A DNA stretch of 64,000 nucleotides from Muribaculaceae bacterium (lineage in GTDB: Bacteria > Bacteroidota > Bacteroidia > Bacteroidales > Muribaculaceae): positions 166,846-230,845 of the forward strand of contig JAFRRT010000033.1 of NCBI GenBank assembly GCA_017427945.1. Reading direction: 5' to 3'. Below the pieces are notes generated by a model. That model was not told the DNA's origin. It saw only the letters and a program-made list of their open reading frames with translations, and did not search any database. Positions within the stretch are counted from its first letter, which is position 1. Each line of letters starts with the position of its first letter. A program made the position numbers and the translations under genes. This document shows, one piece after another, positions 31,861 to 64,000 of the stretch.

Positions 31861-34800
31861 TTACTTCACGATGATTTCGCAAATCGAAACACGGTTCCAA
31901 CTCAGTTCGTCAAACATGTTGCTGATACCCTGACCGGCAGCCTGGATGCGGTTGGCGGCGATACCATACTTGCTGACGAGCATATCCTTCACGCTGGCGG
32001 CACGGCCGTTAGCGAGCTTGACGTTGTTTTCCTCATTGCCCTCGGGCGAAGCGTAACCCTTGATGGTGCAGGTAGCCTCGGGATGGCTCTTCAGGTAAGC
32101 GGCAACGCGCTCCACATTGGGACGCTGGTCGGCGCTCACAGCGGTCTTGTTCACGGGGAAGTGAACCAGGACGTTCATGTACTGCTTGCTGTTGTCAACA
32201 ACGGCTGCGGGCTTGTTCTTTGCAGCATTCAGATCGTTCTTGCAGTTGGCAAGGGCACGGTTTGCGGCATCCAGGTCGCCCTGCATTTGAGCCAGACGGC
32301 TGTTGAAGCCGTTCTCGGCATTGGCGAGCTGAGCACGCAGGTCGTTGATCTGGTCATTGAGTACGTTGGTGTTGGTATAAGCGGGCTTGGGAGCCTCCTC
32401 ATTGGAGCCGAAGGTCACGCTCAGACCTACAGAGTAGCTGCGGGGAGTGGGCAGCGACCAGCAGTCGTAACCCTCACCACCGGTACCACCGGCAGCAGCC
32501 GACATGGTGTTACCAGCAACGTCGGTACCCGTGTAGTTGGTGATGGTGAACAAGTCGTTGGCCGAAGCATAGATGCTGGCGTTCTGGATGGTACCCTTGG
32601 TCACATTGTTCAGCCAGTTGTGCGGGAATACGTATGCCAAACGCAGCTCCTGGCAGCGGATGTAGTTGATCTTGTGCTGTACCCAGTCCTCATCACCACC
32701 GGTGTAGATGGAGGAACCATACTCACCGAGGTTAACAGCGATGGTGTTCTTGGTGGGATTGTCGGTATTCTGCTTGCCGTCGTAGAGCACGCCGTCGAAT
32801 ACTACGAAGCCTTGTTCGCGCATGTCAACAGACAACTGGTTCAGACCATTGGTTAACATTTCACGCATGGTAGCGTTGACAACGTCGGCATGGTAGCGGC
32901 CCTGGAACATGGCACTGAAGCGCCAGTTCTTCACGCTCAGAGCGGTGGTGAGACCGAAGCGCAGCTTGGGCTCACGGTTACCGATGATACTCCAATCGGC
33001 CGAAACACGAGGCAGACCCGTGGTCGGGTCAATCAGAATCTGACCAGCCTCGTTGCGCTCGTAGGCACGACCGGTAACGGTGCTGATGGGATGTCCTCTC
33101 ATCACACCATTACGGATGTTACCTGAGTTCCAAGTGTAGGCGTTATAGAACTCAACCAGGTTCTCGGGCAAGTAAACAACCTCACTGTTGGTGTGTGACA
33201 TGTTCAAGCCAACGTTCCAGCGAACGTCCGGGGTGCGAACCAGGTCAACATCGGCGTGGCCTTCCCAGCCCCACGTGTTAAACGTACCCACGTTCATGTT
33301 GTTCAATACGAAACCGGTAGCGTAACTCATGCGGAAGCCGGTCACGATCTGGTCGGCGCAGTGGGTGCGGAACCAGGTGAAGTCGGCATTGATGCGGTCG
33401 TTCCAGAAGCGAGCCTCAACACCAGCCTCGTATGAGGTGGTCATCTCGGGCTTGAGGCTACGGTTGGGACCGGTATAGCCGTACTTGTAACCACCACCCG
33501 TCAGATAGGTGGGCTCGAGCTCGGGATCGATTGAGAGCACGGGAGCATCCTTACCGACCTGTGCGACAGCGCCGCGCAGTTTCAGGTAGTTGATGAAGCC
33601 GATATGCTTCATGAAGCCCATCTCGCTGAGCACGATTGCAAGCTCACCAGCGGGATAGAAGTAGTGGTTATTGTCCTTGGGCAAGGTTGAGGACCAGTCG
33701 TTACGGAAGCGGCCGGTCAAGAAGATCATATTGTTGTAACCCAGCTCTAACTGACCCGAGATAGCCTGCACGCGACGCTTGGTCGAGCGCTTCTTACTGG
33801 AGACGGTGCTCTCGGTACAGTTGTTGATGCTGTAGAAGTCAATCACCTTGAAGTTGGAACCATAGGATGACAAGCTCGTCACACCGTTCTCCAACTGGTG
33901 GTAACCCACCTGCAGGCCCAACGAGTACTTGTTGTCCTGCCAGCTGTTGTTGTAGCCGGCCAGCACGTTGAGCGTCGGGTCGTTGGTGTTGTACTTGGTG
34001 ATGCTGTACTTACCGGCATTGTTGCTATCATCAACAGCCATGTTAGTAGTCACAAAATACGGATGCTTACCATACTGGTAGGTCGAGGTGCTCACGTCCC
34101 AACCCATTTGCAAGCGAAGGTAGGTGTGGACGATCGGGGTGAAATTCAGTGAGAAAGCGCTGATGATACGATCGGTCTCATCATGATTCAGGTTCTTCAT
34201 CAAACCGAACAGCGGGTTCAGCAAATCGGTATCGGTGTAGTATGCGGGATACTTCTGGTGAGCACCGTCCTCGGCAAGATAGATGCTCATATCATCTACA
34301 CTCGGCCATTTGTAGCTTTGGCGAATAGGACCGTCCAAACCACGCATGGCCTTGTCGTTCTTGGCGTTCACATACTGCATGGTACCTTCCATCGCTAACC
34401 ACTTGGTCAACTGGGCGCGACCTGACAGTGACAGGTTGGTACGCGTCAGGTTCGTGGTCTTGACAACACCGTCCTGGTCAAAGAAAGAAGCACTGGCACG
34501 AACAGACATCTTTTCGTTACCAGCCTCCATCGACAGGTTGTGGCGGTGCATGAAACCGGTCTGCAGCACGGCAGCAGCGTTGTCATAGTAAGGCAGTGAG
34601 CCATCATACAGTGAACCATAGCGGCTGGTGTAGTAGAAGTTGGCAGCACCATAAGCACCGTTGATGTACTTGTCCTGAACCTTGGGCCAACCATAAGCTT
34701 TTGACCAAGTAATCTGGTTGCTGTAGGTTACGCGTGCGCGGCCTGCACGACCTTTCTTGGTGGTGATGATGATAGCACCGTTCGAGGCATCACTACCGTA

Positions 34801-35556
34801 CAGAGCGGCAGCAGCAGCGCCTTTCAAGACGGTCATCGACTCGATGTCCTCGGGGTTGAAGTCGTTACCACGAGACGAGTAGTCGGTCGAACGGACATTC
34901 AGACCAGTAACATCATCGGAAACTGCCAGACCCGTTGTGGGGTTGAACGAGGTGTTGTTCATGGGCACACCGTCGATGACATACAGCGGCTGGTTGTTAC
35001 CACTCAGTGACGTGGCACTGCGCAATACAACAGTCGTTGAGGCACCGGGGGCACCACCTGAACTAACGACGCTCATACCCGACACACGACCTTGCAGGGC
35101 CGAGATAAAGTCGGTACGGCCCGACTCAATAATGTCTTGGGCCTTCACGTTCTGCACCGAGGAACCCACGGTGCGTGCAACACGCTTCATACCGAACTCG
35201 GCCGTCACCACTACATCCTGCAGGGTATTGGCACCTTCGGTCAACTGTACGTTAGCGGCTTGTGACGCGGGAACTTCAATTGCGTCAAAGCCCACATAGG
35301 AGAAGACAAGCGTCTGGTTCGGGTCGGCCTTAATCGAGTAACGACCATCCAAGTCGGTGGTCGTTCCCGTATTTGTGCCTTTAACCCTTACATTAACGCC
35401 AATCATCGGCTCTCCGTTGGCGTCCTTCACAACGCCCGAAACTCGGTTGCTCTGGGCAACAGCCGTGAAGCCCGTGCTATACTGACTTGGTGTCAGTCCA
35501 GCAGGGATACCCATGGCTATCGCCAATGCGCAGAGCAGTGCTAATTGTTTTTTCAT
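31861..35556 (-). CDS. SusC-like TonB-dependent transporter fused to coiled coil and OmpA domain (pair A)
   Basis: 1231 residues from the ATG at 35556 (MKKQLALLCALAIA). Order: signal peptide 1-33; CarboxypepD_reg-like domain about 37-115 (GVVKDANGEPMIGVNVRVKG); plug about 125-260 (VLKGAAAAALYGSDASNG); barrel to about 1045, whose last strand reads RSYSVGLSVTFGS; then coiled coil about 1064-1113 (LNDQINDLRAQLANAENG) and an OmpA-type domain to the C-terminus (VHFPVNKTAVSADQRP, KGYASPEG, NVKLANGRAASVKDML). Normal SusC proteins stop at the last strand. The tail should reach the periplasm and touch peptidoglycan. Substrate unknown; no GH genes nearby. Confidence 0.93.
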   Translation of the reverse strand: MKKQLALLCALAIAMGIPAGLTPSQYSTGFTAVAQSNRVSGVVKDANGEPMIGVNVRVKGTNTGTTTDLDGRYSIKADPNQTLVFSYVGFDAIEVPASQAANVQLTEGANTLQDVVVTAEFGMKRVARTVGSSVQNVKAQDIIESGRTDFISALQGRVSGMSVVSSGGAPGASTTVVLRSATSLSGNNQPLYVIDGVPMNNTSFNPTTGLAVSDDVTGLNVRSTDYSSRGNDFNPEDIESMTVLKGAAAAALYGSDASNGAIIITTKKGRAGRARVTYSNQITWSKAYGWPKVQDKYINGAYGAANFYYTSRYGSLYDGSLPYYDNAAAVLQTGFMHRHNLSMEAGNEKMSVRASASFFDQDGVVKTTNLTRTNLSLSGRAQLTKWLAMEGTMQYVNAKNDKAMRGLDGPIRQSYKWPSVDDMSIYLAEDGAHQKYPAYYTDTDLLNPLFGLMKNLNHDETDRIISAFSLNFTPIVHTYLRLQMGWDVSTSTYQYGKHPYFVTTNMAVDDSNNAGKYSITKYNTNDPTLNVLAGYNNSWQDNKYSLGLQVGYHQLENGVTSLSSYGSNFKVIDFYSINNCTESTVSSKKRSTKRRVQAISGQLELGYNNMIFLTGRFRNDWSSTLPKDNNHYFYPAGELAIVLSEMGFMKHIGFINYLKLRGAVAQVGKDAPVLSIDPELEPTYLTGGGYKYGYTGPNRSLKPEMTTSYEAGVEARFWNDRINADFTWFRTHCADQIVTGFRMSYATGFVLNNMNVGTFNTWGWEGHADVDLVRTPDVRWNVGLNMSHTNSEVVYLPENLVEFYNAYTWNSGNIRNGVMRGHPISTVTGRAYERNEAGQILIDPTTGLPRVSADWSIIGNREPKLRFGLTTALSVKNWRFSAMFQGRYHADVVNATMREMLTNGLNQLSVDMREQGFVVFDGVLYDGKQNTDNPTKNTIAVNLGEYGSSIYTGGDEDWVQHKINYIRCQELRLAYVFPHNWLNNVTKGTIQNASIYASANDLFTITNYTGTDVAGNTMSAAAGGTGGEGYDCWSLPTPRSYSVGLSVTFGSNEEAPKPAYTNTNVLNDQINDLRAQLANAENGFNSRLAQMQGDLDAANRALANCKNDLNAAKNKPAAVVDNSKQYMNVLVHFPVNKTAVSADQRPNVERVAAYLKSHPEATCTIKGYASPEGNEENNVKLANGRAASVKDMLVSKYGIAANRIQAAGQGISNMFDELSWNRVSICEIIVK

Positions 35557-35679
35557 ACGCACTTTGCTTTTAATTGATTAGTTAATGAATTGGTTAAACA
35601 TCGATATATTGTTACATTCTCAATCACTCTTGTGGCAGTATTCTCCCTTCCCGGGGAACACGAAAAACAAGTTTCAAAA

Positions 35680-36240: not shown

Positions 36241-38115
36241 TTACTCTTGGTTGCTGTCCCACCATACGGGGATGGTCCAAGCGTCATCCTGGAGGTTCCA
36301 CATCACTTCCTTGCCCTCACCGTCGGTCATGCGGGCACCGGGAACCTGGCTGCCGATGGCCTGCAGGTTCTTGCTGTTGTAGTTGTACTCGTGCGAGCAC
36401 TGACGCCAGCGGCGATACTGCTTACCCTCGGGGATTGCCAGCATAGCGGCAGCCACCTTGTAGTGGTAAGCGGGAACTGACCAACCGAAGAAGATGTTGG
36501 GATCGAAGTCATAGCGGCGCATATCGTTCCAGATCTCATAGGAGAACATCAGGGCAATACGCTTCTGCATGAGGATGTGGCCAATGGTCAACTCAGCCTG
36601 AGTGCCGATACCATTGTTCACGAAGTTGTCGATAGCCTCATCGGTCATCGGGGTGAACGACGGGCAGTCGGCGAGGCTTGCATCCTCGGCAATCCATGCC
36701 CTCAGCTTCTCGTTCATCAGCTCGCAGCTGGCCTTGACACCCTTCTTGTAGGCATCGTATGCACCAGCCTTGTCACCCTTCTTCAAGAGGGTCTCGGCCT
36801 TGATGAAGCAGCACTCGGCATAGGTGCCAATGTAGGTGGGCGAGCTCACGCGGGTGTAGAACGTACCCGACTCGGCCGACTCAAACTTACCACTACCGGC
36901 GCGGCAGTACAGGATGCTGGGATTAGCAAAGTAACCCTTGCAGTCACTGGTGCATTCGATATAGACGGTATCACCCTTGCGAGCATCATTCTTTGTGTCA
37001 ATGTACCAGCTGTTGGTAGACGTATTGAACATGGCGCGAAGAGGACCACCTTGGCTGTTGATATCGCTGGCCATGTCAACGCCGAGCGAACGGCGCCAGT
37101 TGCCCACCCACTTCACGTCGGTACGGCTGTTGGCATCCTTGCTGGGGCTGTAAGCCCAGGGGATGATGTGGTCGGCACGGGGGTCTTCAACACCCTTACC
37201 GGCAAAGTTGGTCAGGTTGTCATAGAGCATCTTGGTCACCATGTAACCGGCATTCATACCGCAAACCGAGAACAGGGGTGAGTAGTCAACAGGCTCATCC
37301 CAACCCAGTACGTCGTGCGTGGGACCGTTGTCGTCGGTATGGTTAACGATGGTGTTGTCGGCATTGCTCTGCATAGCCTTGTCAAGGCAGCGCAGGATCT
37401 CGTCGGCATCATACTTACCATCCTTGTAGCTACCAGCACCTTTCTTATTCAACTTGTTGATCCAGCGGGCCTTGAGCATATAGGCGAGTTTGATCCACTT
37501 GTTCAGGTCACCCTTGTTCCACCAGTCACCGGCTGCCAGCGTGGGCAGGCTGGGATCCTGGCTCTGACCCTTCTCAAGGAGTTCGATGGCCTTGTCGATG
37601 CACTCAAAGCAGCCCAGATAGATGGTCTTACCCGTATCATACTCGGGGGTAGCGGGCTCAGCAGCAGCCTGGGTGTAAGGCATCTCACCATAAAGGTCGG
37701 TCATGGCCATGAAGCCATAGGCCTTAATCAGATAGCCGGCACCAGCAAATTGCCAGTTTTCGGCAGCCTCGGCCTTGGCAATCATGTCGGGCACATTGGC
37801 ATAGGCGCCGACGAACCACCACTGATAGGTCGTGGTTACCTGACCAATAACAGGATACCAATAGGAAACGTGCCAGTAGTTACCGCCACCGTTGTAGCGG
37901 GTCCAGTCACCCATGGACATGGTAGTGCGCCAAGCGCTGAACTGCAAGCCACTGTTGGTATAGAACTCAATGTGTGCGAGACGCTGGTCGTAGGTCGTGG
38001 ACTCGGCCGAAGGAGTATTCGGGTCAACGTTCACGTCAAGCCAGTCGTTGCAAGAGGTCAGCGACAGCATCGCAGCACCCAGACCGCACAGTATAATTGA
38101 TTTGAAAAGTTTCAT
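36241..38115 (-). CDS. SusD/RagB-like outer-membrane lipoprotein (pair B)
   Basis: 624 residues. Signal peptide MKLFKSIILCGLGAAMLSL with lipobox SLTSCNDWLDVN. Helical SusD body with YLIKAYGFMAMTDLYGEMPYT and HILMQKRIALMFSYEIWNDM typical of the SusD-like_2 group, and resemblance to susD A. Outer-membrane, surface-exposed lid of the SusC barrel. Starts 33 nt after susC B with the conserved AACAGATATAATT leader. The operon has only two genes; no SusE-like lipoprotein follows. Confidence 0.93.
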   Translation of the reverse strand: MKLFKSIILCGLGAAMLSLTSCNDWLDVNVDPNTPSAESTTYDQRLAHIEFYTNSGLQFSAWRTTMSMGDWTRYNGGGNYWHVSYWYPVIGQVTTTYQWWFVGAYANVPDMIAKAEAAENWQFAGAGYLIKAYGFMAMTDLYGEMPYTQAAAEPATPEYDTGKTIYLGCFECIDKAIELLEKGQSQDPSLPTLAAGDWWNKGDLNKWIKLAYMLKARWINKLNKKGAGSYKDGKYDADEILRCLDKAMQSNADNTIVNHTDDNGPTHDVLGWDEPVDYSPLFSVCGMNAGYMVTKMLYDNLTNFAGKGVEDPRADHIIPWAYSPSKDANSRTDVKWVGNWRRSLGVDMASDINSQGGPLRAMFNTSTNSWYIDTKNDARKGDTVYIECTSDCKGYFANPSILYCRAGSGKFESAESGTFYTRVSSPTYIGTYAECCFIKAETLLKKGDKAGAYDAYKKGVKASCELMNEKLRAWIAEDASLADCPSFTPMTDEAIDNFVNNGIGTQAELTIGHILMQKRIALMFSYEIWNDMRRYDFDPNIFFGWSVPAYHYKVAAAMLAIPEGKQYRRWRQCSHEYNYNSKNLQAIGSQVPGARMTDGEGKEVMWNLQDDAWTIPVWWDSNQE

Positions 38116-38148
38116 AATTATATCTGTTTTTTAATAGTCAGTTAATGA

Positions 38149-41100
38149 TTACTTCACGATGATTTCGCAAATCGAAACACGGTTCCAGCTCAATTCGTCA
38201 AACATGTTGCTGATACCCTGGCCAGCGGCTTTGATGCGGTTGGGAGCGATACCATACTTCTTGACGAGCATGTCCTTCACGCTGGCGGCACGGCCTTCAG
38301 CGAGCTTGAGGTTGTTGGCCTGATTGCCCTCGGGAGAAGCATAACCCTTGATTTCGCAGGTTGCCTCGGGATGGCTCTTCAGGTAAGCGGCAACACGCTC
38401 AACGTTGGGACGCTGATCGGCACCGATGGCGGTCTTGTTCACAGGATAGTGAACGAGCACGTTCATGTACTGCTTGCTGTTGTCAACAACGGCTGCAGGC
38501 TTGTTCTTGGCAGCGTTCAGGTCGTTGCGGCAGTTAGCCAGAGCACGGTTAGCGGCAGCAAGGTCGTTCTCGAGCTGAGCAATGCGGCCATTGCTAGCGT
38601 TCTGAGCGTTGGCCAGCTGGTTGCGCAGGTCGTTGATCTGACCGTTGAGGTTCTCGAGCTCAACGTTGTTCACGCGGGCGGGAGCGGCATCGTCGGTGCC
38701 GAAGGTCAGGTTTACGCCGATAGCATAGGAACGGGTAGCGGGAACGCCACAGTAGTCGAAGCCTACCGATGACGAACCACCGATACCAGCACCAGCGGCG
38801 GCCACCTCAGGATCACCGTCATAGTTGGTGAACAGCAGCAGGTTGTTAGCCGAAGCTGTGATGGCTGCACGCTTGATGTACTTGGTACGGGCCAAGAAGC
38901 TGCGAGGAACATCATAGGTCAGCGAGATGGTGCGCAGACGCAGGCTCTTCACGTAGGTAATCCAGTTACGAACCTCGTAGTTGTAAGCACCGGTGTAGTA
39001 GTTCTTGATGATGTTGTAACCACTGGTCTCGTTGCCGTTAAAGATGTAGTTCTGATCGGCCTTCCAGGTGTTGCTGACAGGCTCATAGATAGGATCGCCG
39101 TTGGCATCCTTGTTACCCGTGTCAAACACACCCTCGATGGTAAGAGCCTCGTTGCGCCAGTCGGCGCTGAGCTCGCTCACGCCGCTCATCGACATGGCAT
39201 ACTTGGTACCGTTGAAGACGTCGCCGCCATAACGGAACTCCCACAACATGTTGAAGGTCCAGTTCTTGAAGAAGGTGAAGGTGTTGTTCCAACCACCCTG
39301 CCACTTGGCCTCACGGTCGCCGACCTCATAGGCCTTGCCGTCGGTGGTGGGGAAGCCATTCTTGTCAAGGATGAGTTCACCCTTGCTGGTGCGGTTCCAC
39401 TTGGTACCGTCGATACCCATGAAGTTACCATGGTTGTAGCTGGCAGCCTTAGCACCACCATACTGCACGTCGGTCAGGTACATAACGTCGATACCGTTCA
39501 CCAGGTCACCCACGGTGCCACGGTTACCGAAGATGTTGATACCGGTTTCCCAAATGAAGTTCTCATGCTGGATGGGAGTGCCACTCAAGCTGAACTCAAG
39601 ACCCTTGTTATAGATGTTACCAGAGTTCAATGAGCAGAAGATGTAACCGGTGGACTGAGGTCCGCGCGGCGACAAGATCATGTCATAAGAATTGTTGGTG
39701 TAGTAAGCTGCATCAAATTTCAAGCGGTTCTGGAGGAAGCGCAGCTCAAGACCAACCTCGGTCGAACGGGTGCGCTCGGGCTTCATATAGGTGTTACCAC
39801 GGGTCCAGCTATTGCCGATACCGATGATACCATCAAGATAAGTACCTACAGGCCACGAATAAGTGTTGGTCTCGTAAGGGGAGGTGTCCTTACCTACCTC
39901 GGCCCAGCTGGCACGGATCTTACCAAAGGAGAACCAGTCAGGCAGGCTCTCACGGAAGAGCTCGGTGAAGGCGATAGCGCCGCTCACGCTGGGATAGAAG
40001 TAGCTGCGGTTATCCTTGGGCAGAGTCGAAGACCAGTCGTTACGGCCGGTAACGGTCAGGAAGATAGCGTTGCGCCAGTCAACACGGAACTCACCGAAAG
40101 CCGAAACCATACGCTTCTGGCTCATACGATGCTTAAAGCTCTGTGAAGCCTTCTCGGCGTACTCAGCACTATAGAATTCCGAGGGGAAGTTATAGGCCAT
40201 CTCATAGTCGCTACGGGTCTTGGTGTACTCGGTAGCACCACCCAACATCAAGTTGAAGTTGAAGTCACCGAACTGCTTGTTCCAGTTCGACATCAGGTTG
40301 TTGCTCAAGTAACGATACTTGTACATGTTGTTACTCCACATACCGTTCTGCCAAACCTTCTTGATGGCACCATTCGGGGCTATGCGGTTGTCGCTCTGAG
40401 TCGTGTAGCTGTCCACACCCATGCGGTAGCTCAGCCACCACCAGTCAAACAGATCCCACTTCACGTTGAAGTTGCCGGTGAAACGCTCGGTGTCATCGGT
40501 CATCTTGTTCTTGTTGACAATCCAGTAGGGGTTGTCACGCTCGTCCCAAGGATCAAGCAGATCACCGAACATGCGATAGCGTGTGCCGTCATCATTGAGG
40601 TAGTGGCGCATGTCATCGCTGGGAGCCCAGTTGTAGGCAGCATAGAGGGCACCAGTACCACTGGAACCGTACAGAGCGGCACCAGTCAGGGTCTTCACGG
40701 TGCGGGCATCGCTGTAGGCAGCGTTGGCGCCAAAGGTGAAGCGGCCCACCTTCTGCTCACCATTGAAGCGGAAGGTCGTCTTGGTGTAACCCGTGGTGGG
40801 AACGATACCGTCCTGATCGTAGAATGAACCGCTCAGGAAGAAGTTGTTGTTCTTGGTACCACCGCTAACGCTCAAGTTGGTGTCCCAGATGATACCTGTC
40901 TCGAAGAAGTTCTTCAGGTTATCATAGAAGGGAACATTCTGCTTGGGACCCCATGAGTTGTAGCTGTCGTCCTTGATGTCAAGACCGGTCCACTGGCCAG
41001 CGTCGTTGTACATGTCGGTCATGTAACCGCGGATGTACTCGTTTTGAGTCTTGGGCAGATCCTTCACCATCGAGGCAATCATCTTACCCGAGAAGCTGAC

Positions 41101-41913
41101 CTCGGTGTGGCCTTCCTTACCTTTCTTGGTAGTGATGATGACAACACCGTTGGCAGCACGGCTACCGTAAAGTGCCGATGCGGCCGGACCCTTCAGGATC
41201 GACATGCTCTCGATGTCCTCGGGGTTGATATCCATCACACGGTTGGAAGAAGTGGTGGCACTGTTCATCATACCGTCGAATGCGGAGTTACCAACAACAC
41301 CTGCCGAGTTGTCGTAGATGACACCATCCACAACGAACAGCGGCTGAGAGTCATGGGTCTCGGAAACCGTAGTACCACCACGCAGGATGATCTGGGCGCC
41401 CGAACCAGCGGCACCAGACGACTGGGTGATGTTAACACCAGCAATCTTACCCGACAGGGAGTTGATGGCGTTGGCGCTCTTGTTGCGCATCAGCTCATCG
41501 GCCTTCAGGTCGTCAACGGCATAACCCAGTGACTTCTTGTCCTTGCGGATACCGAGTGCGGTTACAACCACCTCGTCCAGGACCTGGTCATTGGCCTGCA
41601 TGCTGATGTCCATGTCACCGCTACCAACGGTAACCTCCATGGGCTTACTGCCGATGTAGGATACGACGAGCACGTCGCCACGGTTAGCGTTGATTGAATA
41701 CTTGCCGTCCACATCGGTGGCGGTACCGCGGTTGGTACCCTTGACCTTGACGGTCGCACCGATGAGAGGCTCACCTTGGGCGTCACGTATGACGCCAGAG
41801 ACTTTGTTGGCTTGGGCCTCGGCTGTGAAACCCGTGCTGGGGAGTGATGTCATCCCAGCCGGTGCTCCGCAGGCGATTGCCAGAGCGGCCAACAGTGCTA
41901 ATTGTTTTTTCAT
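38149..41913 (-). CDS. SusC-like TonB-dependent transporter fused to coiled coil and OmpA domain (pair B)
   Basis: 1254 residues from the ATG at 41913. The signal peptide (MKKQLALLAALAIACGAPAG) nearly equals that of susC A. CarboxypepD_reg-like domain (GVIRDAQGEPLIGATVKVKG), TonB-box region DEVVVTALGIRKDKK, plug (SILKGPAASALYGSRAANG), barrel ending RSYAIGVNLTFGTDD, coiled coil (LNGQINDLRNQLANAQNA) and OmpA-type domain (VHYPVNKTAIGADQRP, KGYASPEG, NLKLAEGRAASVKDML). The first 75 coding bases of the tail (from 38156) differ from susC D by about one base, though the barrels are distant. Substrate unknown. Confidence 0.93.
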   Translation of the reverse strand: MKKQLALLAALAIACGAPAGMTSLPSTGFTAEAQANKVSGVIRDAQGEPLIGATVKVKGTNRGTATDVDGKYSINANRGDVLVVSYIGSKPMEVTVGSGDMDISMQANDQVLDEVVVTALGIRKDKKSLGYAVDDLKADELMRNKSANAINSLSGKIAGVNITQSSGAAGSGAQIILRGGTTVSETHDSQPLFVVDGVIYDNSAGVVGNSAFDGMMNSATTSSNRVMDINPEDIESMSILKGPAASALYGSRAANGVVIITTKKGKEGHTEVSFSGKMIASMVKDLPKTQNEYIRGYMTDMYNDAGQWTGLDIKDDSYNSWGPKQNVPFYDNLKNFFETGIIWDTNLSVSGGTKNNNFFLSGSFYDQDGIVPTTGYTKTTFRFNGEQKVGRFTFGANAAYSDARTVKTLTGAALYGSSGTGALYAAYNWAPSDDMRHYLNDDGTRYRMFGDLLDPWDERDNPYWIVNKNKMTDDTERFTGNFNVKWDLFDWWWLSYRMGVDSYTTQSDNRIAPNGAIKKVWQNGMWSNNMYKYRYLSNNLMSNWNKQFGDFNFNLMLGGATEYTKTRSDYEMAYNFPSEFYSAEYAEKASQSFKHRMSQKRMVSAFGEFRVDWRNAIFLTVTGRNDWSSTLPKDNRSYFYPSVSGAIAFTELFRESLPDWFSFGKIRASWAEVGKDTSPYETNTYSWPVGTYLDGIIGIGNSWTRGNTYMKPERTRSTEVGLELRFLQNRLKFDAAYYTNNSYDMILSPRGPQSTGYIFCSLNSGNIYNKGLEFSLSGTPIQHENFIWETGINIFGNRGTVGDLVNGIDVMYLTDVQYGGAKAASYNHGNFMGIDGTKWNRTSKGELILDKNGFPTTDGKAYEVGDREAKWQGGWNNTFTFFKNWTFNMLWEFRYGGDVFNGTKYAMSMSGVSELSADWRNEALTIEGVFDTGNKDANGDPIYEPVSNTWKADQNYIFNGNETSGYNIIKNYYTGAYNYEVRNWITYVKSLRLRTISLTYDVPRSFLARTKYIKRAAITASANNLLLFTNYDGDPEVAAAGAGIGGSSSVGFDYCGVPATRSYAIGVNLTFGTDDAAPARVNNVELENLNGQINDLRNQLANAQNASNGRIAQLENDLAAANRALANCRNDLNAAKNKPAAVVDNSKQYMNVLVHYPVNKTAIGADQRPNVERVAAYLKSHPEATCEIKGYASPEGNQANNLKLAEGRAASVKDMLVKKYGIAPNRIKAAGQGISNMFDELSWNRVSICEIIVK

Positions 41914-42292
41914 ACGCACTAACTTTAAATTAATAAATTAAGTTATTTAATCATTCATTTTTTTGGCATTTGAAAAGGCAAATTTGCAAATAAAAATTAT
42001 CGTGACCAAAAAAACAACCAAAAAAATGACGAAAAAGGGTCAATTTTGGCGTTTTTTACCACAATATTTCTATATTATGGACAATTTTTTGCATTTATTA
42101 ACATTGAAAACTGCAAAAATCTGCTGATTTTTTGGCCATTTCAAAAAAATTATCGAATTTTGCACTTTGTTAAAAAACGCAAAACCAAACTGATGTGTGA
42201 ATTGATGTGTGACTGAAGCATATAATATGCGGCAAAATCAGACTCTATAAATTGTATTAACTAACTAAATATTAACTAACTAAAACGTGCTT
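41914..42292. promoter_or_regulatory. Divergent control region of susC B and susC C
   Basis: 379 bp, A/T-rich, no gene. On the minus strand TTTGCAAATTTGCC (41975-41992) is the likely -7 region of susC B. On the plus strand TTTTGCACTTTG (42158-42170) precedes susC C by about 120 nt. Runs of A and T (for example 42000-42035) fill the middle. No regulator gene sits here. Confidence 0.45.
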
Positions 42293-45200
42293 ATGAAAAG
42301 ACATTTAGCTCTTTTGGGTGCATTGATGCTGCTGTGTGGTACTGGCTACCAGGCCCAGGCAACACCCGCGCCCCAGGTGTCGGCAAATTCCGCCACCAGC
42401 ATTGTGACAGGCCGCGTTGTCGATGAACAGGGAGAACCCGTCATCGGCGCCAGCATTGTCGAAGTTGGAACGACCCGTGGCACATCGACCGATGTGGACG
42501 GTAACTTCTCGTTCAAGGCTAGCCCTAACGCTAAGCTGCAGATTTCGTTCATCGGCTACAAGACTCAGGAGCTGCGTGCCAGCAACGGCATGCGCGTCGT
42601 CCTCGCCGAGGATAACGCAAAGCTCGATGAGGTCGTAGTCGTTGGTTACGGTACACAGCGCAAGGCCAACCTGACCGGTGCTGTGAGCACCGTGGATGTT
42701 GACAAGGTGCTCGGTTCCAAGTCCGAGACCGACGTCAGGAAGTCACTGCAGGGTACCGTTCCCGGCTTGACCATCTTGAACGCCAACGGTGACATCAGCG
42801 CCGACCCGTCAATTGTTATTCGTGGTATTGGTACGCTGTCTAACAGTGGTGTATCCAACCCGTTGTACATCGTTGACGGTGTGCCCGTTGAATCGCTGGG
42901 TGACCTGAACCCCGCCGATATCGAGAACATCAGTGTCCTGAAGGATGCTGCTTCGACCTCGATCTACGGTACACGTGCAGCTTTCGGTGTTGTTTTGATC
43001 ACCACCAGGACCGCTCACGTGAAGGACAACGTAAGGGTTAACTACAACAACAACTTCGCATGGAGCCAGGCTACCACCTTGCCCGACTATCCCAACGTTC
43101 CCACCCAGGTTAGCGCCCTGAACGACGTGAACCACCGCATGGGCGTTGCATCGGAGCTCTTTGGTATGTACATGGACAGCGAGGCTTTCCAGAATGGTAT
43201 CAACAACTGGATCAAGAAGCATGGCGACATCAAGGACAAGTATCGTCAGATGGTCTATGGTGACGACTATGATGAGAACGGTTACTATGCCAACTGGGAT
43301 GTTCCCGGCATCATGTTCAACAACCATGCTCCCTCACAGAGCCACACCCTGAGTGTAACCGGTAACTCGGGCCGCATCAACTTCTACACCTCGGTTGGTT
43401 ACAACCAGAAGCAGTCGCTGATGAACTTCAACCCCGACAAGTTCCGCAAGTACAACGCCACCGCCAACATCTCGGTGCGCGCTACCGACTGGTTAGAGGT
43501 CGGCACCCGCATCAGCTATGTTGACAGGACCTATGAGACTCCCTACAAGCGTGGTGCCGGTACCTATCAGTACCTGTGGCGCTGGGGTTCGTTCTTTGGC
43601 CCCTACGGCTACTTTGTAGATCCTAACGACGGCAAGCAGTATGACGCCCGCACCATGATTGGTGGTCGCAACACCGGTGGTGATTGCTACTACAAGATGA
43701 ACAACCTGAGCCTGGGCGCATTCGCCAAGATTGACTTCGGTTATGGCCTGAGCTTCAATGCCGACTACACCTTCATCAAGAGGGACACCCGTTACAAGGG
43801 CGTAGGTCTCCCCTCGGTTGTTTACAACACTTGGGGTCTGAATCCTCAGGGTCCCGTGGACATCACTGGCTCGACCTTCATCGAGACCGACCGCAGCAAC
43901 CGTTACAACCACGTGGCTAACGGTTACTTTGATTGGCACCGTTCAATCAATGACGCACACAACTTCAACTTTAAGGTGGGTGCCAATGTGGATAAGTATG
44001 AGTATGAGTACCTCTACTACGAGCGTCACGGCATTCAGGACCTCAACATGCCTGAGCTGGCACTGTGTAACGAGGACTACAGCTACAGCCACAGCCATAC
44101 CCACTGGGGTTCAGCAGGCTTCTTTGGCCGTATCAACTATGACTACAAGGGCATCTGGTTGCTCGAGCTGAATGGCCGCTACGACGGTTCGAGCAAGTTC
44201 CCCAAGAAAGATCAGTGGGCGTTCTTCCCCTCTGCATCAATTGGTTGGCGCATCAGTGAGATGGGCTTCTGGACTCCCATTAAGAACACCATCAGCAATG
44301 CTAAGATTCGTGCATCTTATGGTGTAATCGGTAACCAGGAAATCGGTTCCAATATGTTCCTCGAGACCATGGGCAAGGTGACCAACGGTGTAAACTGGGT
44401 TGGTACCGGCAACTCCAAGTATGACTACTTTGGTGCTCCCAAACTGGTTTCTGAATCACTGACCTGGGAGAAGATCCACACCACCAACGTGGGTCTTGAC
44501 CTGGCCTTCTTCAACGGCCACCTGAACGTGACCGCCGACTGGTATCAGCGTGACACTAAGGACATGCTCGCTCCCGGTAAGGCCATGCCTTCAGTTCTGG
44601 GTGCAAGCGCCGCTTGGGAGAACGCAGGTTCGATGCGCACCCGTGGTTGGGAAGTCGCTGTTGACTACCGCAACCGCATCGGCGCCGTTGATTTCTATGT
44701 TACTGCTATCGTGAATGACTACAAGACCAAGGTTACCACTTGGGACAGCAACAACATGATCAACACCAACTACTCTGGTAAGGAGTATGGCGAGATCTGG
44801 GGCTTCGAGACCGACCGCTACTTCGACTTCAAGGACTTCAATGCCGACGGTACCTATGCCGCTGGTGTTGCTGACCAGACCAAGCTGCAGTCCAACGGCT
44901 TTGTTTACGGCCCTGGTGACATCAAGTTCAAGGACCTGAACGGTGACGGTGTGATCGACTGGGGTAAGGGTACTCCCGAAGATCACGGTGACCTGAAGCG
45001 CATCGGTAACTTCACCCCGCGCTATCAGTACTCGCTGCGCCTGGGTGCTGCCTGGAAGGGCTTTGACGTTGACTTCTACCTGCAGGGCGTAGGCAAGCGC
45101 GACATGTGGACCCAGTCTGCATTCGTAATGCCGTTCATGCGTGGTGCCGACGCTATCTACACCAACCAGACCAGCTATGTGACCGAGGCTGACTATGCCG

Positions 45201-46129
45201 CCGGTAGGATTGACCAGAACGCCGACTTCCCCCGCATGTGGGCTGGTGGCGCTGGCCGTGGTACCGCTTCGAGCGACATCCTTGACCTGGGTAAGTTCAA
45301 CTTCTATCCCCAGACCAAGTATCTGGTGAACATGAGCTACCTGCGCATGAAGAACATCACCGTTGGTTACACGCTGCCGCAGAACTGGACCCGCAAGGCC
45401 CTCATCGAGAAACTGCGCATCTACGCTTCGACCGACAACCTGTTCGACATCATCAACCACAACAACGGTACCGGTCTCGATCCCGAGATCAACACCGGTG
45501 TGGGTTCCTATGGTAACGCTGTTTGGGGTCGTACCGATCCTATCATGCGTACCTACAGTGTAGGTCTTCAGCTGACCTTCGGCAGCAGCAGCCGCACTGC
45601 CGTTGCCGGTCCCGTTGACAACAGCGCCCTGAACGCTCAGATCAATGACCTGCGCGCACAGCTCGCCGACGCCGAGAACGGCTACAACGCCCGCCTCGCC
45701 GACCTGCAGAACCAGCTCAACGCTGCCAACAACCGCAACGCTCAACTGCAGAAGGATTTGAACGAATGCCAGAAGAGCAAGGGCAACATGATTGACAAGG
45801 CCCAGCAGTACATGACCGTTTTGTGCCACTTCCCCGTGAACAAGACCGCCGTCACTGCCGACCAGCAGCCCAATGTTGAGCGCATCGCCGCTTACATGAA
45901 GAGCCATCCCGGTTCAACCTGCGAAATCAAGGGTTATGCATCGCCCGAGGGTCCTCAGGACCACAACATCAAGCTCGCTGAGGGCCGTGCCGCCAGCGTG
46001 AAGGATATGCTCGTGAAGAAGTATGGCATCGATGCCAAGCGCATCAAGGCCGCTGGCCAGGGCATCAGCAACATGTTTGATGAGCTGAGCTGGAACCGCG
46101 TTTCTATCTGCGAGATCATCGTGAAGTAA
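42293..46129 (+). CDS. SusC-like TonB-dependent transporter fused to coiled coil and OmpA domain (pair C)
   Basis: 1278 residues from the ATG at 42293 (MKRHLALLGALMLLCG); an upstream in-frame GTG at 42287 is less likely. Signal about 1-24, CarboxypepD_reg-like domain (GRVVDEQGEPVIGASIVEVG), DEVVVVGYGTQRKANLTGAV region typical of classical SusC, plug (SVLKDAASTSIYGTRAAFG), barrel ending RTYSVGLQLTFGSS, coiled coil of about 55 residues (LNAQINDLRAQLADAENG) and OmpA-type domain (CHFPVNKTAVTADQQP, KGYASPEG, NIKLAEGRAASVKDML). Classic DEVVVVGYGTQ and the paired SusD suggest a glycan importer, but no enzyme genes point to a substrate. Confidence 0.94.
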   Translation: MKRHLALLGALMLLCGTGYQAQATPAPQVSANSATSIVTGRVVDEQGEPVIGASIVEVGTTRGTSTDVDGNFSFKASPNAKLQISFIGYKTQELRASNGMRVVLAEDNAKLDEVVVVGYGTQRKANLTGAVSTVDVDKVLGSKSETDVRKSLQGTVPGLTILNANGDISADPSIVIRGIGTLSNSGVSNPLYIVDGVPVESLGDLNPADIENISVLKDAASTSIYGTRAAFGVVLITTRTAHVKDNVRVNYNNNFAWSQATTLPDYPNVPTQVSALNDVNHRMGVASELFGMYMDSEAFQNGINNWIKKHGDIKDKYRQMVYGDDYDENGYYANWDVPGIMFNNHAPSQSHTLSVTGNSGRINFYTSVGYNQKQSLMNFNPDKFRKYNATANISVRATDWLEVGTRISYVDRTYETPYKRGAGTYQYLWRWGSFFGPYGYFVDPNDGKQYDARTMIGGRNTGGDCYYKMNNLSLGAFAKIDFGYGLSFNADYTFIKRDTRYKGVGLPSVVYNTWGLNPQGPVDITGSTFIETDRSNRYNHVANGYFDWHRSINDAHNFNFKVGANVDKYEYEYLYYERHGIQDLNMPELALCNEDYSYSHSHTHWGSAGFFGRINYDYKGIWLLELNGRYDGSSKFPKKDQWAFFPSASIGWRISEMGFWTPIKNTISNAKIRASYGVIGNQEIGSNMFLETMGKVTNGVNWVGTGNSKYDYFGAPKLVSESLTWEKIHTTNVGLDLAFFNGHLNVTADWYQRDTKDMLAPGKAMPSVLGASAAWENAGSMRTRGWEVAVDYRNRIGAVDFYVTAIVNDYKTKVTTWDSNNMINTNYSGKEYGEIWGFETDRYFDFKDFNADGTYAAGVADQTKLQSNGFVYGPGDIKFKDLNGDGVIDWGKGTPEDHGDLKRIGNFTPRYQYSLRLGAAWKGFDVDFYLQGVGKRDMWTQSAFVMPFMRGADAIYTNQTSYVTEADYAAGRIDQNADFPRMWAGGAGRGTASSDILDLGKFNFYPQTKYLVNMSYLRMKNITVGYTLPQNWTRKALIEKLRIYASTDNLFDIINHNNGTGLDPEINTGVGSYGNAVWGRTDPIMRTYSVGLQLTFGSSSRTAVAGPVDNSALNAQINDLRAQLADAENGYNARLADLQNQLNAANNRNAQLQKDLNECQKSKGNMIDKAQQYMTVLCHFPVNKTAVTADQQPNVERIAAYMKSHPGSTCEIKGYASPEGPQDHNIKLAEGRAASVKDMLVKKYGIDAKRIKAAGQGISNMFDELSWNRVSICEIIVK

Positions 46130-46161
46130 TTATTATGAACTCAATTTAAACAGATATAATT

Positions 46162-47925: not shown

Positions 47926-47927
47926 AA

Positions 47928-58667: not shown

Positions 58668-60221
58668 TTACTCAGGATAGTCACCAACGGGGTTCTGGTC
58701 CTTATTGATGTCCATGTTGATGTTGCCGTCAAACTCAGCCTGCGGAATGGTGAGTACCCACAGATAACTGGCAGGATCCTGCATGGCCTGGAGATGGGTG
58801 GGCAGCAGCAGGCCGCTGGGCCAACCGTAAGAATCGGGACGAACAAAGCCCTGGTGCAAGCGACGGATGGTGTAGATACGGCCATCCTCACCCCACAACT
58901 CGAGACGGCGCTGGATGAGGATTTCCTCGAGCAGCGAAGTGCCACCAGTTTCATCGGTAGTGATCGTGTGAATGCTGTTACCGGTCTTGGCGGTGTCGTA
59001 GTTGGAATCACGCTTGCTCATCAGTGCCATCAGGTACTGCTTGGCAGTAGCGTCGTCACCCTTGTGGCAAGCAGCCTCGGCAGCGTTGAGGTACATCTCC
59101 TCAACACGCATCCAGATGTAGTCACCTTCCCAGGTCTGCTCGTTGGAGAACTCAAACTTCTTCTGCAGATAGCTCTCGGCGGGATTCCACCATGCGCGAC
59201 GTGAGTCGGTAGCACTCATCTTGCCATACAGCCATGCAGAAATCTGCTTGGGAGCACGCTGACCGTAAGGAGCAGTACCGCTCATGTGGGTCATCAGCGA
59301 AGCATACATACCAGCCTGGTCGCTCACAATCTGAGCACCCCACATTACATTACCCTGGCCAACAGAGTTGATGAAGTTGGCCTTGTTGGGAGCAAATGCG
59401 CTGGCATCAACAGTCTGAATCTTCTTGCCACTGACGGCAATAGCATTCTTGGCAGCATCGAGGGCAGCATCCCACTTCTCCTCAACGAGGCAGATACGGG
59501 ACTTGATACCCAGAGCCACAGCATAACTCATGTGGCTGGGATGACGCTGAGCGGGCGACTTGGCGAGCAGTTCAAGGGCGTGGTCGATGTCGCTGTCAAT
59601 CTGAGCATAAACCTCACTGACTTTAGCGCGAGGCTGACCGGTCGTGGTGGTCATAGTGGGCTCATTGTAGATGGGCACACAAGGATCGTTGCTGAAGTTG
59701 TAGTTACGGGCAAAGGTCTGTGCCAGCATGAAGTAACTGTAGGCACGGATGGCATAAGCCTGACCGATTACATAGGCTACATCGGCCTCAGAGCCTTCCA
59801 TGGTCTCCTCAGCGGCAATGATGTAGTTGGCATTGGCAATCCAGGTGTAGTAAGCCATCCACAGGTCATAACTGCGCCATGAACTGGAGGTGAAACGTCC
59901 CTTTACATTATAGGCTGCGTCAAACCAGAACCAGCCCGAACCCTGGGCACCCATGATAAAGTCATCACCCATCACCTCGGCCATCAGGTTATAGGCACTG
60001 ATACCAAAGCACTGGTGGGTGTTGCCGGTGGTGGACCAACCGGCAGTGTACATCGAGCGGTAGATACCGTTCAGAGGGATTAACGCCTTGGTAGCATCGC
60101 TCATGAAGGTTGCTCCCGACATGGAGTCGGTGGGCTGGGTCTCCAGCAATTCGCTGTCGCAGGAGGTCAGGCAAGCCACACCAAACAGTCCAATCAACAA
60201 ATATTTAAATATCTTTTTCAT
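58668..60221 (-). CDS. SusD/RagB outer-membrane lipoprotein (pair D)
   Basis: 517 residues. Signal peptide MKKIFKYLLIGLFGVACL with lipobox CLTSCDSELLETQPTD. Classical SusD features: DATKALIPLNGIYRSMYTAG, AYAIRAYSYFMLAQTFARNY, WMRVEEMYLNAAEAACHKGD and LEEILIQRRLELWGEDGRIY. Unlike pairs A-C, its signal peptide and leader are different, and the gap to susC D is 135 nt and filled with 7-bp repeats. Ligand unknown. Confidence 0.95.
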   Translation of the reverse strand: MKKIFKYLLIGLFGVACLTSCDSELLETQPTDSMSGATFMSDATKALIPLNGIYRSMYTAGWSTTGNTHQCFGISAYNLMAEVMGDDFIMGAQGSGWFWFDAAYNVKGRFTSSSWRSYDLWMAYYTWIANANYIIAAEETMEGSEADVAYVIGQAYAIRAYSYFMLAQTFARNYNFSNDPCVPIYNEPTMTTTTGQPRAKVSEVYAQIDSDIDHALELLAKSPAQRHPSHMSYAVALGIKSRICLVEEKWDAALDAAKNAIAVSGKKIQTVDASAFAPNKANFINSVGQGNVMWGAQIVSDQAGMYASLMTHMSGTAPYGQRAPKQISAWLYGKMSATDSRRAWWNPAESYLQKKFEFSNEQTWEGDYIWMRVEEMYLNAAEAACHKGDDATAKQYLMALMSKRDSNYDTAKTGNSIHTITTDETGGTSLLEEILIQRRLELWGEDGRIYTIRRLHQGFVRPDSYGWPSGLLLPTHLQAMQDPASYLWVLTIPQAEFDGNINMDINKDQNPVGDYPE

Positions 60222-60273: not shown

Positions 60274-60316
60274 GAATAGTATCGCCTGAAATGAATTGTC
60301 AATTGAGGTAATATTT

Positions 60317-60356: not shown

Positions 60357-63300
60357 TTACTTAACGATGATTTCGCAAATCGAAACACGGTTCCAGCTCA
60401 ATTCGTCAAACATGTTGCTGATACCCTGGCCAGCGGCGTTGATGCGGTTGGCTGCGATACCATACTTCTTGACGAGCATATCCTTCACGCTGGCGGCACG
60501 GCCGTTAGCGAGCTTGATGTTCACATCTTCCTTACCCTCGGGAGAAGCATAACCCTTGATCACGCAGGTAGCCTCGGGATGGCTCTTCAGGTAAGCAGCA
60601 ACGCGCTCTACATTGGCACGCTGGTCAGCGGTGATAGCGGTACCACTCTTGGGGAAGTGAACCAGGATGTTCATGTACTGCTTGCTGTTGTCTACCACCT
60701 TGGGAGCAACATTCTTGGCAGCGTTCAGGTCGTTGCGACAGTTGGCCAGTGCGCGGTTAGCGGCATCCAGGTCACCCTGCAGCTGAGCAAGACGGCTGTT
60801 AGCGTCGGCAGCGGCACCCTGAGCGTCGGCCAGCTGAGCGCGCAGGTCATTGATCTGGCTGTTCAGCAGATTGACATTGGCAGCGGGAGCGGCAGCTGCG
60901 TAGCTCTTACCGAAGTTCAGCTCGATACCTACGGTGTAGGTCTTGTTGGGGCTGTAGTCATAGTCGGTACCACCAGAGAAGTTGTACTGGGGATCCATAC
61001 CGTCGAGGTGTGTCCACAGGGCCAGGTTATCAACCGAACCGAAGATGCGGGCACCGGTCATACCCAACTTGCTTACCCAGTTAGCGGGCAGAGCGTAAGC
61101 CAGGGTGATGTTCTTGATAGCGAAGTAACTAGCATCGATCAGGAAACGGTCGGTGTTAGCAATCGACTCGGCGATGGTCGAGCGGGGAACGTCGGTCACG
61201 TCACCGGGCTTCTGCCAACGGCGCATCATGTTCTTGTTCCAGGTCGAGCTCAGGTACCACAGGTTCATATCGCTCTGGTACAGGCCGTCAAATACCTTAC
61301 CACCCAGTGAATAGGTAGTCAGCACGCTCAGGGTCAGACCCTTCCAAGAGAAGTCAGTTCCAAGAGAACCAAAGATGTCCGGCTGACGGCTACCCTGGTA
61401 GTACTTGCAGGTGTTAGCAAGGGAGTAGCTGTCGGTGATGTACTCACTGCCAGGAACCATGTTACCGTCATCGTCCTTCTCATAAGCCCAGTACAGTGAG
61501 TGACCGTTCGACGGGTCAACACCAGCGCTCTTAGCCATATAATAGGTGTAGATGGGCATACCTTCCTTGATCACGCGTACGCCGCTGATCAACTCGGGAG
61601 CCTCGTCGGTCAACTTGATGACTTTGTTCTTGTTGTGGGTAGCCATTGCGGTGATGTTCCACTCAAAGTCGGCAGTGCGGACGGGGGTGATGCGAATCGA
61701 ACCCTCGACACCACGGTTGCGCATGTCGCCCACATTGTCCATGAAGCCGGTGAAACCGGTCGACAATGCCATGGGACGGTTGAGCAGCATGTTCTTGGTC
61801 AGACGGTTGTAGAAGTCAACGTTCAACTGCAAGCGGTGGTTGAACAGGATAGCGTCAAAGCCTGCATTGAAGTTCTGGCTCTTCTCCCAAGATACCTTCT
61901 GGTTCTCGAGCGAAGAAATCAAAGCACCAATGTTGGTAGCATTGCTGTAAGACAGGTCATAGAGTGACTGCCAAGCGTAGTAGGTCTGGAGCATATCGTT
62001 ACCCTGCTCACCGTAACTGGCCTTTACAGACAGGTTGTTTACCCAACCCACGTTCTGCATGAACTTCTCACCTGATACACGCCAGTTGGCACCGACACTC
62101 CAGAAGGTACCCTTGTTGTGGTCGGGGTGGAAGCGCGACGACTTGTCCTGACGCAGCGAACCGCTCAGGAAGTAGCGACCGGCGAAGTTATAGTTGATAC
62201 GACCCAGGTAGGAGTCGATGCGGTACTTGTCGCTGTAGGAGTCAGCCTCCAGCAGGGTGGTGGCGGGACGCAACTCGTAGATACCGTCAACGAGGTTGGT
62301 CTTGCCGGCTACCAGATAACTGTATTCATAGGCATACCACTCGTGACCCAGCAACAGGCCGATGGTGTGGTCACCGAAACTGCGGTCCCAAGTCAACAAC
62401 TGGTTGAAGGTGTAACTCTGGGTGCGGCGATTGTACTTCTCAAGCAGACCACCGGCGCTAGCCTGGTTACCGTGCTGAGAGTTCATATAGTTGGTGTTGT
62501 TGCGGTTCACATAGTCCATGCTGAAGTTCACAGCCAACTTGATGCCCTGACGCCAGCCATACTTGGCCAGGTCGCTACCCAGTACAAGACCGGTGCGCAG
62601 ACCAGCAACATCACGCTTAGCCCATGCCTTATCGAGCATCAGCATACCGAGTGACGAGAAGTCGGTCATCGAACCGGGACGGGTGCCGTAAGGAGTGGCC
62701 TCACCCCAGTCATACTGCACATTGCCTTCGGCATCATTAACAGTGTTACCGTTGATGTCCTTCAGGTAAACGGGCAGCAGCGGGTTGATGAACTGTGCGG
62801 TGTACCAGGGGTTACTGGTGCTGGTACCGTCATAGTCACTGAAGTTCTGCATGGCGTGAGCCAACGAAACATTGATGTTGGCACCCAACCAGTCAGTGAT
62901 TTGGCTGGTGATATTGGCACGGCCAGTGTAACGCTCATAGTTGGTGGTCTTCAGGATACCATCCTCATTCAGGTAACCCAGCGACATCATGTACTGTGCA
63001 TGCTCGCTACCACCGGTCACCTGCAACTGGTGCTCGTGACGGAAGGCGTTGTTGCGGATTACGCTGTCATACCAGTCCTCGTTCCATGCGCTGTTGGCAT
63101 CGGCACGAACTTGACCGGTAGCGGGGTCAATAAGGGTTTCCCAAGTGTAGTTCTTGAAGGGATTGTACTGCTCGCCACCGAGTTGACCGCTCAGGCTGGC
63201 ACGGGCGATAGCCTCAGCATCGCTCCAACTATTACCGTTGTCGAGAGCCTCGTTGCGCAGGGCCTCGTAAACCAACTGTACAAACTCCTTCTGATCAACG

Positions 63301-64000
63301 TGCTGGTAACGCTTGGTAGCGCGTGATGACCAACCGAAGGTCGAACGCCACATCACATTGCTGCGGCCTTCAACACCCTTCTTGGTGGTAATCATTACGA
63401 CACCGTTAGCACCACGGGCACCGTACAGAGCGGCTGCACTTGCATCCTTCAGGACGGTCATCGACTCGATATCAGACGGGTTGATCGAACTCAGGTTGCC
63501 ATCGAAGGGCGCACCATCAACTACATACAACGGGGTGCTGTAAGCGTTGATCGAGCCGTAACCACGGATCTGAATGTTGGGCGATGAACCAGGCTGACCG
63601 GAAGCGCTGGTTACCTGCAGACCGGCTACGTTACCCTCGAGGGCCTTGGTAGCGTCGGTAACAGGACGCAACTCCAGTTTCTTGTTCGTCACAGCCTCGG
63701 CCGAACCGGTGTACGATGTCTTCTTGGCAGTACCATAGGCAACTACCATCACATCGTCCAGCACAGTACCATTATCGGTCAGGGTAATGGCCATGTTGGG
63801 CTGAACAGGCAATTCTTGGGTCTTGTAACCCACATACGAAACCTTGAGGGTCTTCACATTGTAGGGAAGACTCAGCGAGAATTCACCGTTGATGTCGGTG
63901 GCCGCGCCGTTTCCTCCGCCAATGGGCTGTACCGTGGCACCAATCAGCGGTTCACCGTTGGCGTCGGTAACTTGTCCCCTCACTACTTGTTGGGCACTCA
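60357..64000 (-). CDS. SusC-like TonB-dependent transporter fused to coiled coil and OmpA domain (pair D, 5' end missing)
   Basis: About 1213 residues visible; the frame is open to the window edge (SAQQVVRGQVTDANGEPL is the end of the signal and start of the CarboxypepD_reg-like domain), so only the signal peptide is missing. TonB-box region VLDDVMVVAYGTAKKTS, plug (TVLKDASAAALYGARGANG), barrel ending KTYTVGIELNFGKS, coiled coil with an extra Ala/Asp stretch (LNSQINDLRAQLADAQGA), OmpA-type domain (VHFPKSGTAITADQRA, KGYASPEG, NIKLANGRAASVKDML). The tail DNA is nearly the same as in susC B. Substrate unknown. Confidence 0.93.
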   Translation of the reverse strand, partial: SAQQVVRGQVTDANGEPLIGATVQPIGGGNGAATDINGEFSLSLPYNVKTLKVSYVGYKTQELPVQPNMAITLTDNGTVLDDVMVVAYGTAKKTSYTGSAEAVTNKKLELRPVTDATKALEGNVAGLQVTSASGQPGSSPNIQIRGYGSINAYSTPLYVVDGAPFDGNLSSINPSDIESMTVLKDASAAALYGARGANGVVMITTKKGVEGRSNVMWRSTFGWSSRATKRYQHVDQKEFVQLVYEALRNEALDNGNSWSDAEAIARASLSGQLGGEQYNPFKNYTWETLIDPATGQVRADANSAWNEDWYDSVIRNNAFRHEHQLQVTGGSEHAQYMMSLGYLNEDGILKTTNYERYTGRANITSQITDWLGANINVSLAHAMQNFSDYDGTSTSNPWYTAQFINPLLPVYLKDINGNTVNDAEGNVQYDWGEATPYGTRPGSMTDFSSLGMLMLDKAWAKRDVAGLRTGLVLGSDLAKYGWRQGIKLAVNFSMDYVNRNNTNYMNSQHGNQASAGGLLEKYNRRTQSYTFNQLLTWDRSFGDHTIGLLLGHEWYAYEYSYLVAGKTNLVDGIYELRPATTLLEADSYSDKYRIDSYLGRINYNFAGRYFLSGSLRQDKSSRFHPDHNKGTFWSVGANWRVSGEKFMQNVGWVNNLSVKASYGEQGNDMLQTYYAWQSLYDLSYSNATNIGALISSLENQKVSWEKSQNFNAGFDAILFNHRLQLNVDFYNRLTKNMLLNRPMALSTGFTGFMDNVGDMRNRGVEGSIRITPVRTADFEWNITAMATHNKNKVIKLTDEAPELISGVRVIKEGMPIYTYYMAKSAGVDPSNGHSLYWAYEKDDDGNMVPGSEYITDSYSLANTCKYYQGSRQPDIFGSLGTDFSWKGLTLSVLTTYSLGGKVFDGLYQSDMNLWYLSSTWNKNMMRRWQKPGDVTDVPRSTIAESIANTDRFLIDASYFAIKNITLAYALPANWVSKLGMTGARIFGSVDNLALWTHLDGMDPQYNFSGGTDYDYSPNKTYTVGIELNFGKSYAAAAPAANVNLLNSQINDLRAQLADAQGAAADANSRLAQLQGDLDAANRALANCRNDLNAAKNVAPKVVDNSKQYMNILVHFPKSGTAITADQRANVERVAAYLKSHPEATCVIKGYASPEGKEDVNIKLANGRAASVKDMLVKKYGIAANRINAAGQGISNMFDELSWNRVSICEIIVK

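Follow-up and report, generated by a model that had tools for sequence, protein, structure and literature searches.

Analysis of a 64,000-nucleotide stretch of the genome of a Muribaculaceae bacterium (contig JAFRRT010000033.1 of assembly GCA_017427945.1, positions 166,846 to 230,845; hereafter the window) revealed four SusC importers that do not end at the last strand of their barrel and continue into a coiled coil followed by an OmpA-like domain. This SusC-coil-OmpA arrangement is a real, lineage-specific architecture, belonging to one locus in one species clade. Sequence comparisons identify the tail as the periplasmic half (coiled coil and OmpA-like domain) of the cell's own OmpA, with a single origin, although it is carried by several different barrels. 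The account that we favour, and regard as fairly probable in its entirety, is that an OmpA tail was fused once to a SusC, spread by recombination to neighbouring genes, was retained by selection and serves as a tether to the cell wall.

Architecture and occurrence of the tailed SusC proteins

Three of the four genes lie on the minus strand. SusC 1 occupies 31861..35562, an open reading frame (ORF) of 1233 amino acids (aa) from a GTG with a likely start Met at 35556; its tail of 181 aa (31864..32406) comprises a modelled helix (32215-32370) and the OmpA domain PF00691 (31918-32160). SusC 2 (38149..41919, 1256 aa, likely start Met at 41913) has its tail at 38152..38697 with the OmpA domain at 38206-38442, and SusC 4 (60357..63998, 1213 aa) has its tail at 60360..60908 with the domain at 60414-60656. 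The latter gene lacks its 5' end at the open edge of the window, and with it a signal peptide, since the contig apparently ends there. SusC 3, on the plus strand (42287..46129, 1280 aa, likely start Met at 42293), has its tail at 45584..46126 and the OmpA domain at 45830-46072.

All four proteins matched the SusC/RagA model TIGR04056 with 635-813 bits (cut-off 368.25), reaching its last position, and all four tails matched PF00691 with 45-48 bits (gathering score 27.2) and have an OmpA-like fold, in agreement with the initial annotation, which had read four SusC frames with OmpA-type tails in this region. The tails, 181-183 aa long, start immediately past the final barrel strand, the barrels ending in ..LSVTFG, ..VNLTFG, ..LQLTFG and ..IELNFG. 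This strand is the usual end of a SusC, a trait outside the definition of the profile; alignments to the solved SusCs BT2264, BT1763 and RagA end at model residue 927-928, and here 182 more residues follow. Likeness by chance is excluded by the identity among the four tails, which is 66-81% in protein and 79-84% in DNA, against 28-37% in protein among their barrels. As untailed relatives of the same barrels lack it, the tail is, on this comparison, a derived addition.

In structure models, all of single chains, the coil forms one helix of 52 residues, and by eye its hydrophobic residues are spaced 3-4 apart over most of that length. A low-confidence model of the full chain (mean predicted local distance difference test score 59.5), used for domain order and strand count only, contained 22 long strands on a count by eye, and SusC structures match; the predicted barrel is not the 8-strand barrel of an OmpA porin. 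The tailed SusCs resemble porins of the OmpA/OprF type in their succession of barrel, helix and OmpA-like domain, and their tail is derived from the OmpA of the clade, but a TonB-dependent SusC barrel replaces the small barrel. The initial annotation had also pointed out that the barrel-end signal would become internal. The tail does follow the last strand, yet this is not exotic, since in the OmpA of the genome (L011) a barrel likewise precedes the same periplasmic half. Codon adaptation was 0.764-0.771 in three of the four tailed barrels and 0.706 in the fourth, against 0.593-0.740 in the untailed SusCs of the genome, which hints faintly at high expression as a reason for the tail.

The genome holds 12 SusCs over the TIGR04056 cut-off, eight of them without a tail (seven of these end in Phe), and nine PF00691 matches, four of which are the SusC tails. 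The 'four of four' from which a rule for the lineage had been proposed is therefore really four of 12: the architecture is lineage-specific, and a genome-wide rule for SusC tails is ruled out. Across the genus, 57 of 61 genomes had a match to the tail profile and four had none; sorted by eye, the 57 comprised 26 with tailed SusCs and 31 with OmpA only. A long in-frame tailed SusC was present in 72 of 79 loci from other records (three of these, L100, L103 and L117, have a tail that stops early or is truncated at a contig end), which rules out an assembly or frame error as the origin of the fusion. In L103 and L117 (both 1210 aa) the frame ends early in the tail, and in L059, L068 and L095 the tailed gene is interrupted; these could be assembly errors. 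The sample names in the titles of the 79 named loci, where given, are goat, sheep, buffalo and roe deer gut, RUG stands for rumen genomes, and the taxon labels are Muribaculaceae, Prevotellaceae, Porphyromonadaceae or Bacteroidales.

The initial annotation had allowed that the fusion might be universal and already described in SusC proteins, and this was not borne out. Among the matches listed for 297 genomes of the family (30 genera), no long tailed frame occurred outside the genus. A profile of barrel end plus tail, with six candidates scored per genome, was run on 393 genomes from the order and 395 from the phylum and found fused frames in the own genome only; these samples contain few genomes per genus, and a fusion of SusC to a dissimilar OmpA domain could escape detection. 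No published description of the architecture was found in a literature search in which 'susc' partly matched 'susceptibility' and most subscription journals were outside the scope. In another family of the order, one SusC barrel-end match (G391:C1:180899-181267) contains two TAA stops in frame.

Donor of the tail and the putative wall-binding site

The OmpA of the genome (417 aa) has the same coil and domain as the SusC tails. Tails and motifs were counted over 73 SusC tails, namely the 69 of the 72 long fused frames that end in VK together with the window's four. A tree of 101 tails groups these 73 into one clade (Shimodaira-Hasegawa-like approximate likelihood ratio test 95.7) adjoining 20 OmpAs from the tailed genomes, G009 and G055, and the remaining eight OmpAs of the genus fall outside. 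A more careful tree of 60 of the 101 rows gave supports of 99/95.7 and 100/98.5, its bootstrap not having settled. Because the tails fall together with the OmpAs of the tailed clade in a group that excludes the other OmpAs of the genus, the tail is dated after the split of that clade.

In Flavobacterium johnsoniae, according to PMC12611786, OmpA is described as an anchor of the outer membrane to the wall, and the two components most abundant in that membrane are OmpA and a SusCDE complex. By analogy, wall anchoring is the most likely function of the tail: the long helix would span from the outer membrane towards the cell wall and the OmpA-like domain would bind the wall, tethering the SusCD importer there as OmpA acts. 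The tails carry the peptidoglycan motif as N-x2-L-A-x2-RA-x2-V, within the N-x2-L-[SA]-x2-R-A-x2-V first read from the DNA, with its Arg kept. PMC12108004 reports that an Asp and an Arg bind diaminopimelate in the OmpA of Acinetobacter baumannii. The residue aligned with that Arg (Arg286) is an invariant Arg in a 35-row tail alignment.

Several observations weigh against this account. The canonical binding Asp (Asp271 of A. baumannii OmpA) is Ser in 73/73 tails and in 28/28 OmpAs of the genus, and the donor and tails of this clade differ here from porins of the OmpA/OprF type; by eye, four other OmpA-domain proteins of the genome retain the Asp. Moreover, an untailed SusC and another TonB-dependent receptor of B. 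thetaiotaomicron stay in the outer membrane and out of vesicles, according to PMC6222051, as does BT_0418, an 8-strand porin that has a wall-binding domain, and since an ordinary SusC mostly stays there too, the tail is not needed for retention in that membrane. The site reads A-S-x-[ED]-G throughout the 73 tails and 28 OmpAs, and the acid two residues past the Ser may stand in for the Asp. As the Asp of the diaminopimelate site is Ser, wall binding by the tails is advanced here as a proposal only.

The missing Asp would suit a different reading, which we consider rather unlikely, that the tail is a pairing device whose coil joins the two halves of SusC2D2, or SusC with OmpA, and which a core cysteine may cross-link. 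The single helix with its mostly 3-4 hydrophobic spacing agrees with it, and so do the cysteines. The coil of all 73 SusC tails contains a Cys, which is residue 55 in 55 tails and residue 62 in 18, places that lie one heptad apart and by eye are equivalent; all 73 also have Cys113, found in just 3/28 OmpAs. These SusC-tail cysteines (113, and 55 or 62) are absent from the 20 OmpAs that belong to the clade and its sisters. However, 7/28 OmpAs likewise have a Cys in column 62, the models are of single chains, and a coil alone would suffice for pairing, yet the OmpA domain is under purifying selection as well.

Spread and retention of the tail among susCD pairs

Each tailed SusC adjoins a SusD-family match. 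The partner of SusC 1 (29935..31854, minus strand, SusD-like_2) has a likely start at 31827 and the leader MKHFKSIILCALAC, that of SusC 2 (36241..38115, minus, SusD-like_2 / SusD-like) the leader MKLFKSIILCGLG, that of SusC 3 (46162..47883, plus, SusD_RagB) the leader MKLFKSIILVGLG, and that of SusC 4 (58668..60221, minus, SusD-like_3 / SusD_RagB) a leader of another type. In pairs 1, 2 and 3 the likeness in DNA takes in the tail, the stop codon, the gap and roughly the first 60 bases of susD, beyond which it is lost, giving shared tracts of tail, gap and SusD leader, with approximate borders, at 31763..32406 (pair 1, minus), 38051..38697 (pair 2, minus) and 45584..46226 (pair 3, plus). The likeness of pair 4 to the other pairs stops near the stop codon. 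Between the tail stop codon and susD, several pairs have a near-palindromic repeat of about 110 bases with AAGTTTTAAG-like arms around CAGGCGATAC.A.TCATAC; it lies at 60270-60288 and in the gaps of L016, L044, L085, L086, L096, L122 and L266, its core giving nine exact matches in eight sources, one of them in the window.

The barrels under the tails belong to different families. The best window barrel for the 72 fused SusCs was 1 for 16, 2 for 18, 3 for 18 and 4 for 20 of them, five of those under family 3 being just 50-51% identical and treated as an alternative, 3b. Close relatives were found in 22 untailed genomes (barrel 1 in six, barrel 2 in ten, of which one is broken and one comes from another genus, barrel 3 in four and barrel 4 in eight), and 3b has untailed relatives at 66-68% identity; the same pairs, without tails, are neighbours in untailed genomes. 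The complete relatives have no tail and end in Phe, with the exception of three barrel-3 relatives that end, equally without a tail, in Ile or Leu at the barrel end. A barrel tree of 119 rows, built without L100, L103, L117 and tailed frames of up to 1150 aa, requires at least six changes between the tailed and untailed states.

We infer that the tail was copied between pairs by homologous recombination. One kind of leader, mostly MK[LSH][FL]KSIIL, is shared across the tailed clade by the SusDs of pairs 1, 2, 3 and 3b (three pair-2 leaders deviate slightly; leaders were unreadable in the tailed rows L044, L086 and L105 and in several untailed ones). Species without tails have other leaders on the SusDs of pairs 1 and 3, whereas one of their pair-2 SusDs (L153) has a leader of this kind, and pair 2 is for this reason the likely source of the copies. 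Of the gap comparisons, several had many unaligned bases and one was used: pairs 2 and 3b of G024 match at 131/132 bases in the gap and at 86% in the OmpA domain. In the tail tree the 3b tails sit among family-3 tails, and in L063 a tail of the 1/2/4 kind follows a barrel of family 3. According to the proposed history, a SusC, most likely that of pair 2, would have gained the periplasmic half of OmpA after its last barrel strand in the ancestor of one species clade of this gut and rumen Muribaculaceae genus; at least four further SusC genes of the locus would then have received copies, the copied tract extending in pairs 1, 3 and probably allele 3b through the stop codon and gap into the susD signal peptide. 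In Bacteroides fragilis, susC/susD-like genes are shuffled by DNA inversion. Recombination between susCD-type genes would be common to both cases; unlike that shuffling, here a tail from another gene spread onto barrels of different families.

An rpoB tree of 54 of 65 genomes (ten had no match and one a fragment; 22 of the 26 tailed genomes are included) places the 22 tailed genomes on one side of a branch, and these together with the untailed G009 on a branch with support 100. The best relatives of barrels 1, 2 and 4 in G009 are at 33, 35 and 39%, with none for barrel 3 at the threshold, so that for want of close relatives G009 is uninformative on whether tails arose before or after its split. 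Other points tell against the proposed history: the branch uniting the tailed species has a support of only 81; two untailed SusCs (G015, G047), from outside the clade, nest among the tailed family-2 barrels; the pair-2 position of G002 (L263:3576-6827) holds an untailed SusC about 50% like family 2; the leader evidence for 3b is thin, few untailed leaders being readable and one of them (L148) also having KSIIL; and the named records are nearly all metagenome assemblies. The G002 SusC has a signal peptide like that of SusC 2; the leader of its SusD is not alike.

That recombination between adjacent susCD pairs left the tail behind as a neutral by-product without function, as the adjacency of the pairs and the inclusion of gap and susD leader in the tract might suggest, seems improbable in view of its conservation. 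Within families, the median ratio of nonsynonymous to synonymous substitution rates (pairs with a synonymous rate of 0.15-1.5) is 0.08-0.17 for the OmpA domain and 0.15-0.25 for the coil, about as low as the 0.07-0.19 of the barrel, and the 26 tailed genomes yielded a single untailed frame, that of G002, among the matches spanning the whole barrel profile. These ratios show that the tail is kept by purifying selection. Still less credible is an ancestral fusion lost in the other species. The barrel tree alone cannot separate gain from loss, and the two nested family-2 SusCs may be losses, but the tail would have to have been lost from five SusC families throughout the remainder of the genus, and it clusters with OmpAs of the tailed clade, excluding the others. 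Duplication of one fused SusC into four with fast divergence of the barrels, an idea prompted by such similar tails in one locus and the least plausible of all, is ruled out, since untailed relatives outside the clade exist for every barrel family and a single tailed barrel clade is rejected (p 0.00044, 36 of the barrel-tree rows).

A polysaccharide locus was also considered and rejected: a scan of 19 window proteins from the interval 15.6-60.2 kb, covering some but not all ORFs there, found no carbohydrate-active enzyme family. At 49020-50705 and 50804-51835 lie two uridine-kinase-like proteins in tandem. Part of the first weakly resembles threonine-tRNA ligase, and relatives of these proteins occur near the SusC cluster in other tailed genomes.

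Implications of a proposed wall-tethered importer

SusC importers are usually seen as barrels with a lipoprotein lid and without a link to the wall. Beyond the architecture first noticed, the present analysis adds that the tails derive from the cell's own OmpA, sit on barrels of different families and lack the binding Asp. Tentatively, tail and SusD leader could form a portable wall-tether cassette that stays constant while SusC barrels are exchanged or newly fitted, the importers being anchored to the wall and the Cys-bearing coils pairing the tails of SusC2D2; if true, the cassette would provide a constant site at which one nutrient importer could be swapped for another. Copying between neighbouring genes would be a route by which the same fusion is built several times. 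Natural pairs of tailed and untailed SusCs at 61-78% identity are available for comparison, and the effect of tethering a TonB-driven importer on uptake, mobility, envelope stability and vesicle sorting is now testable.
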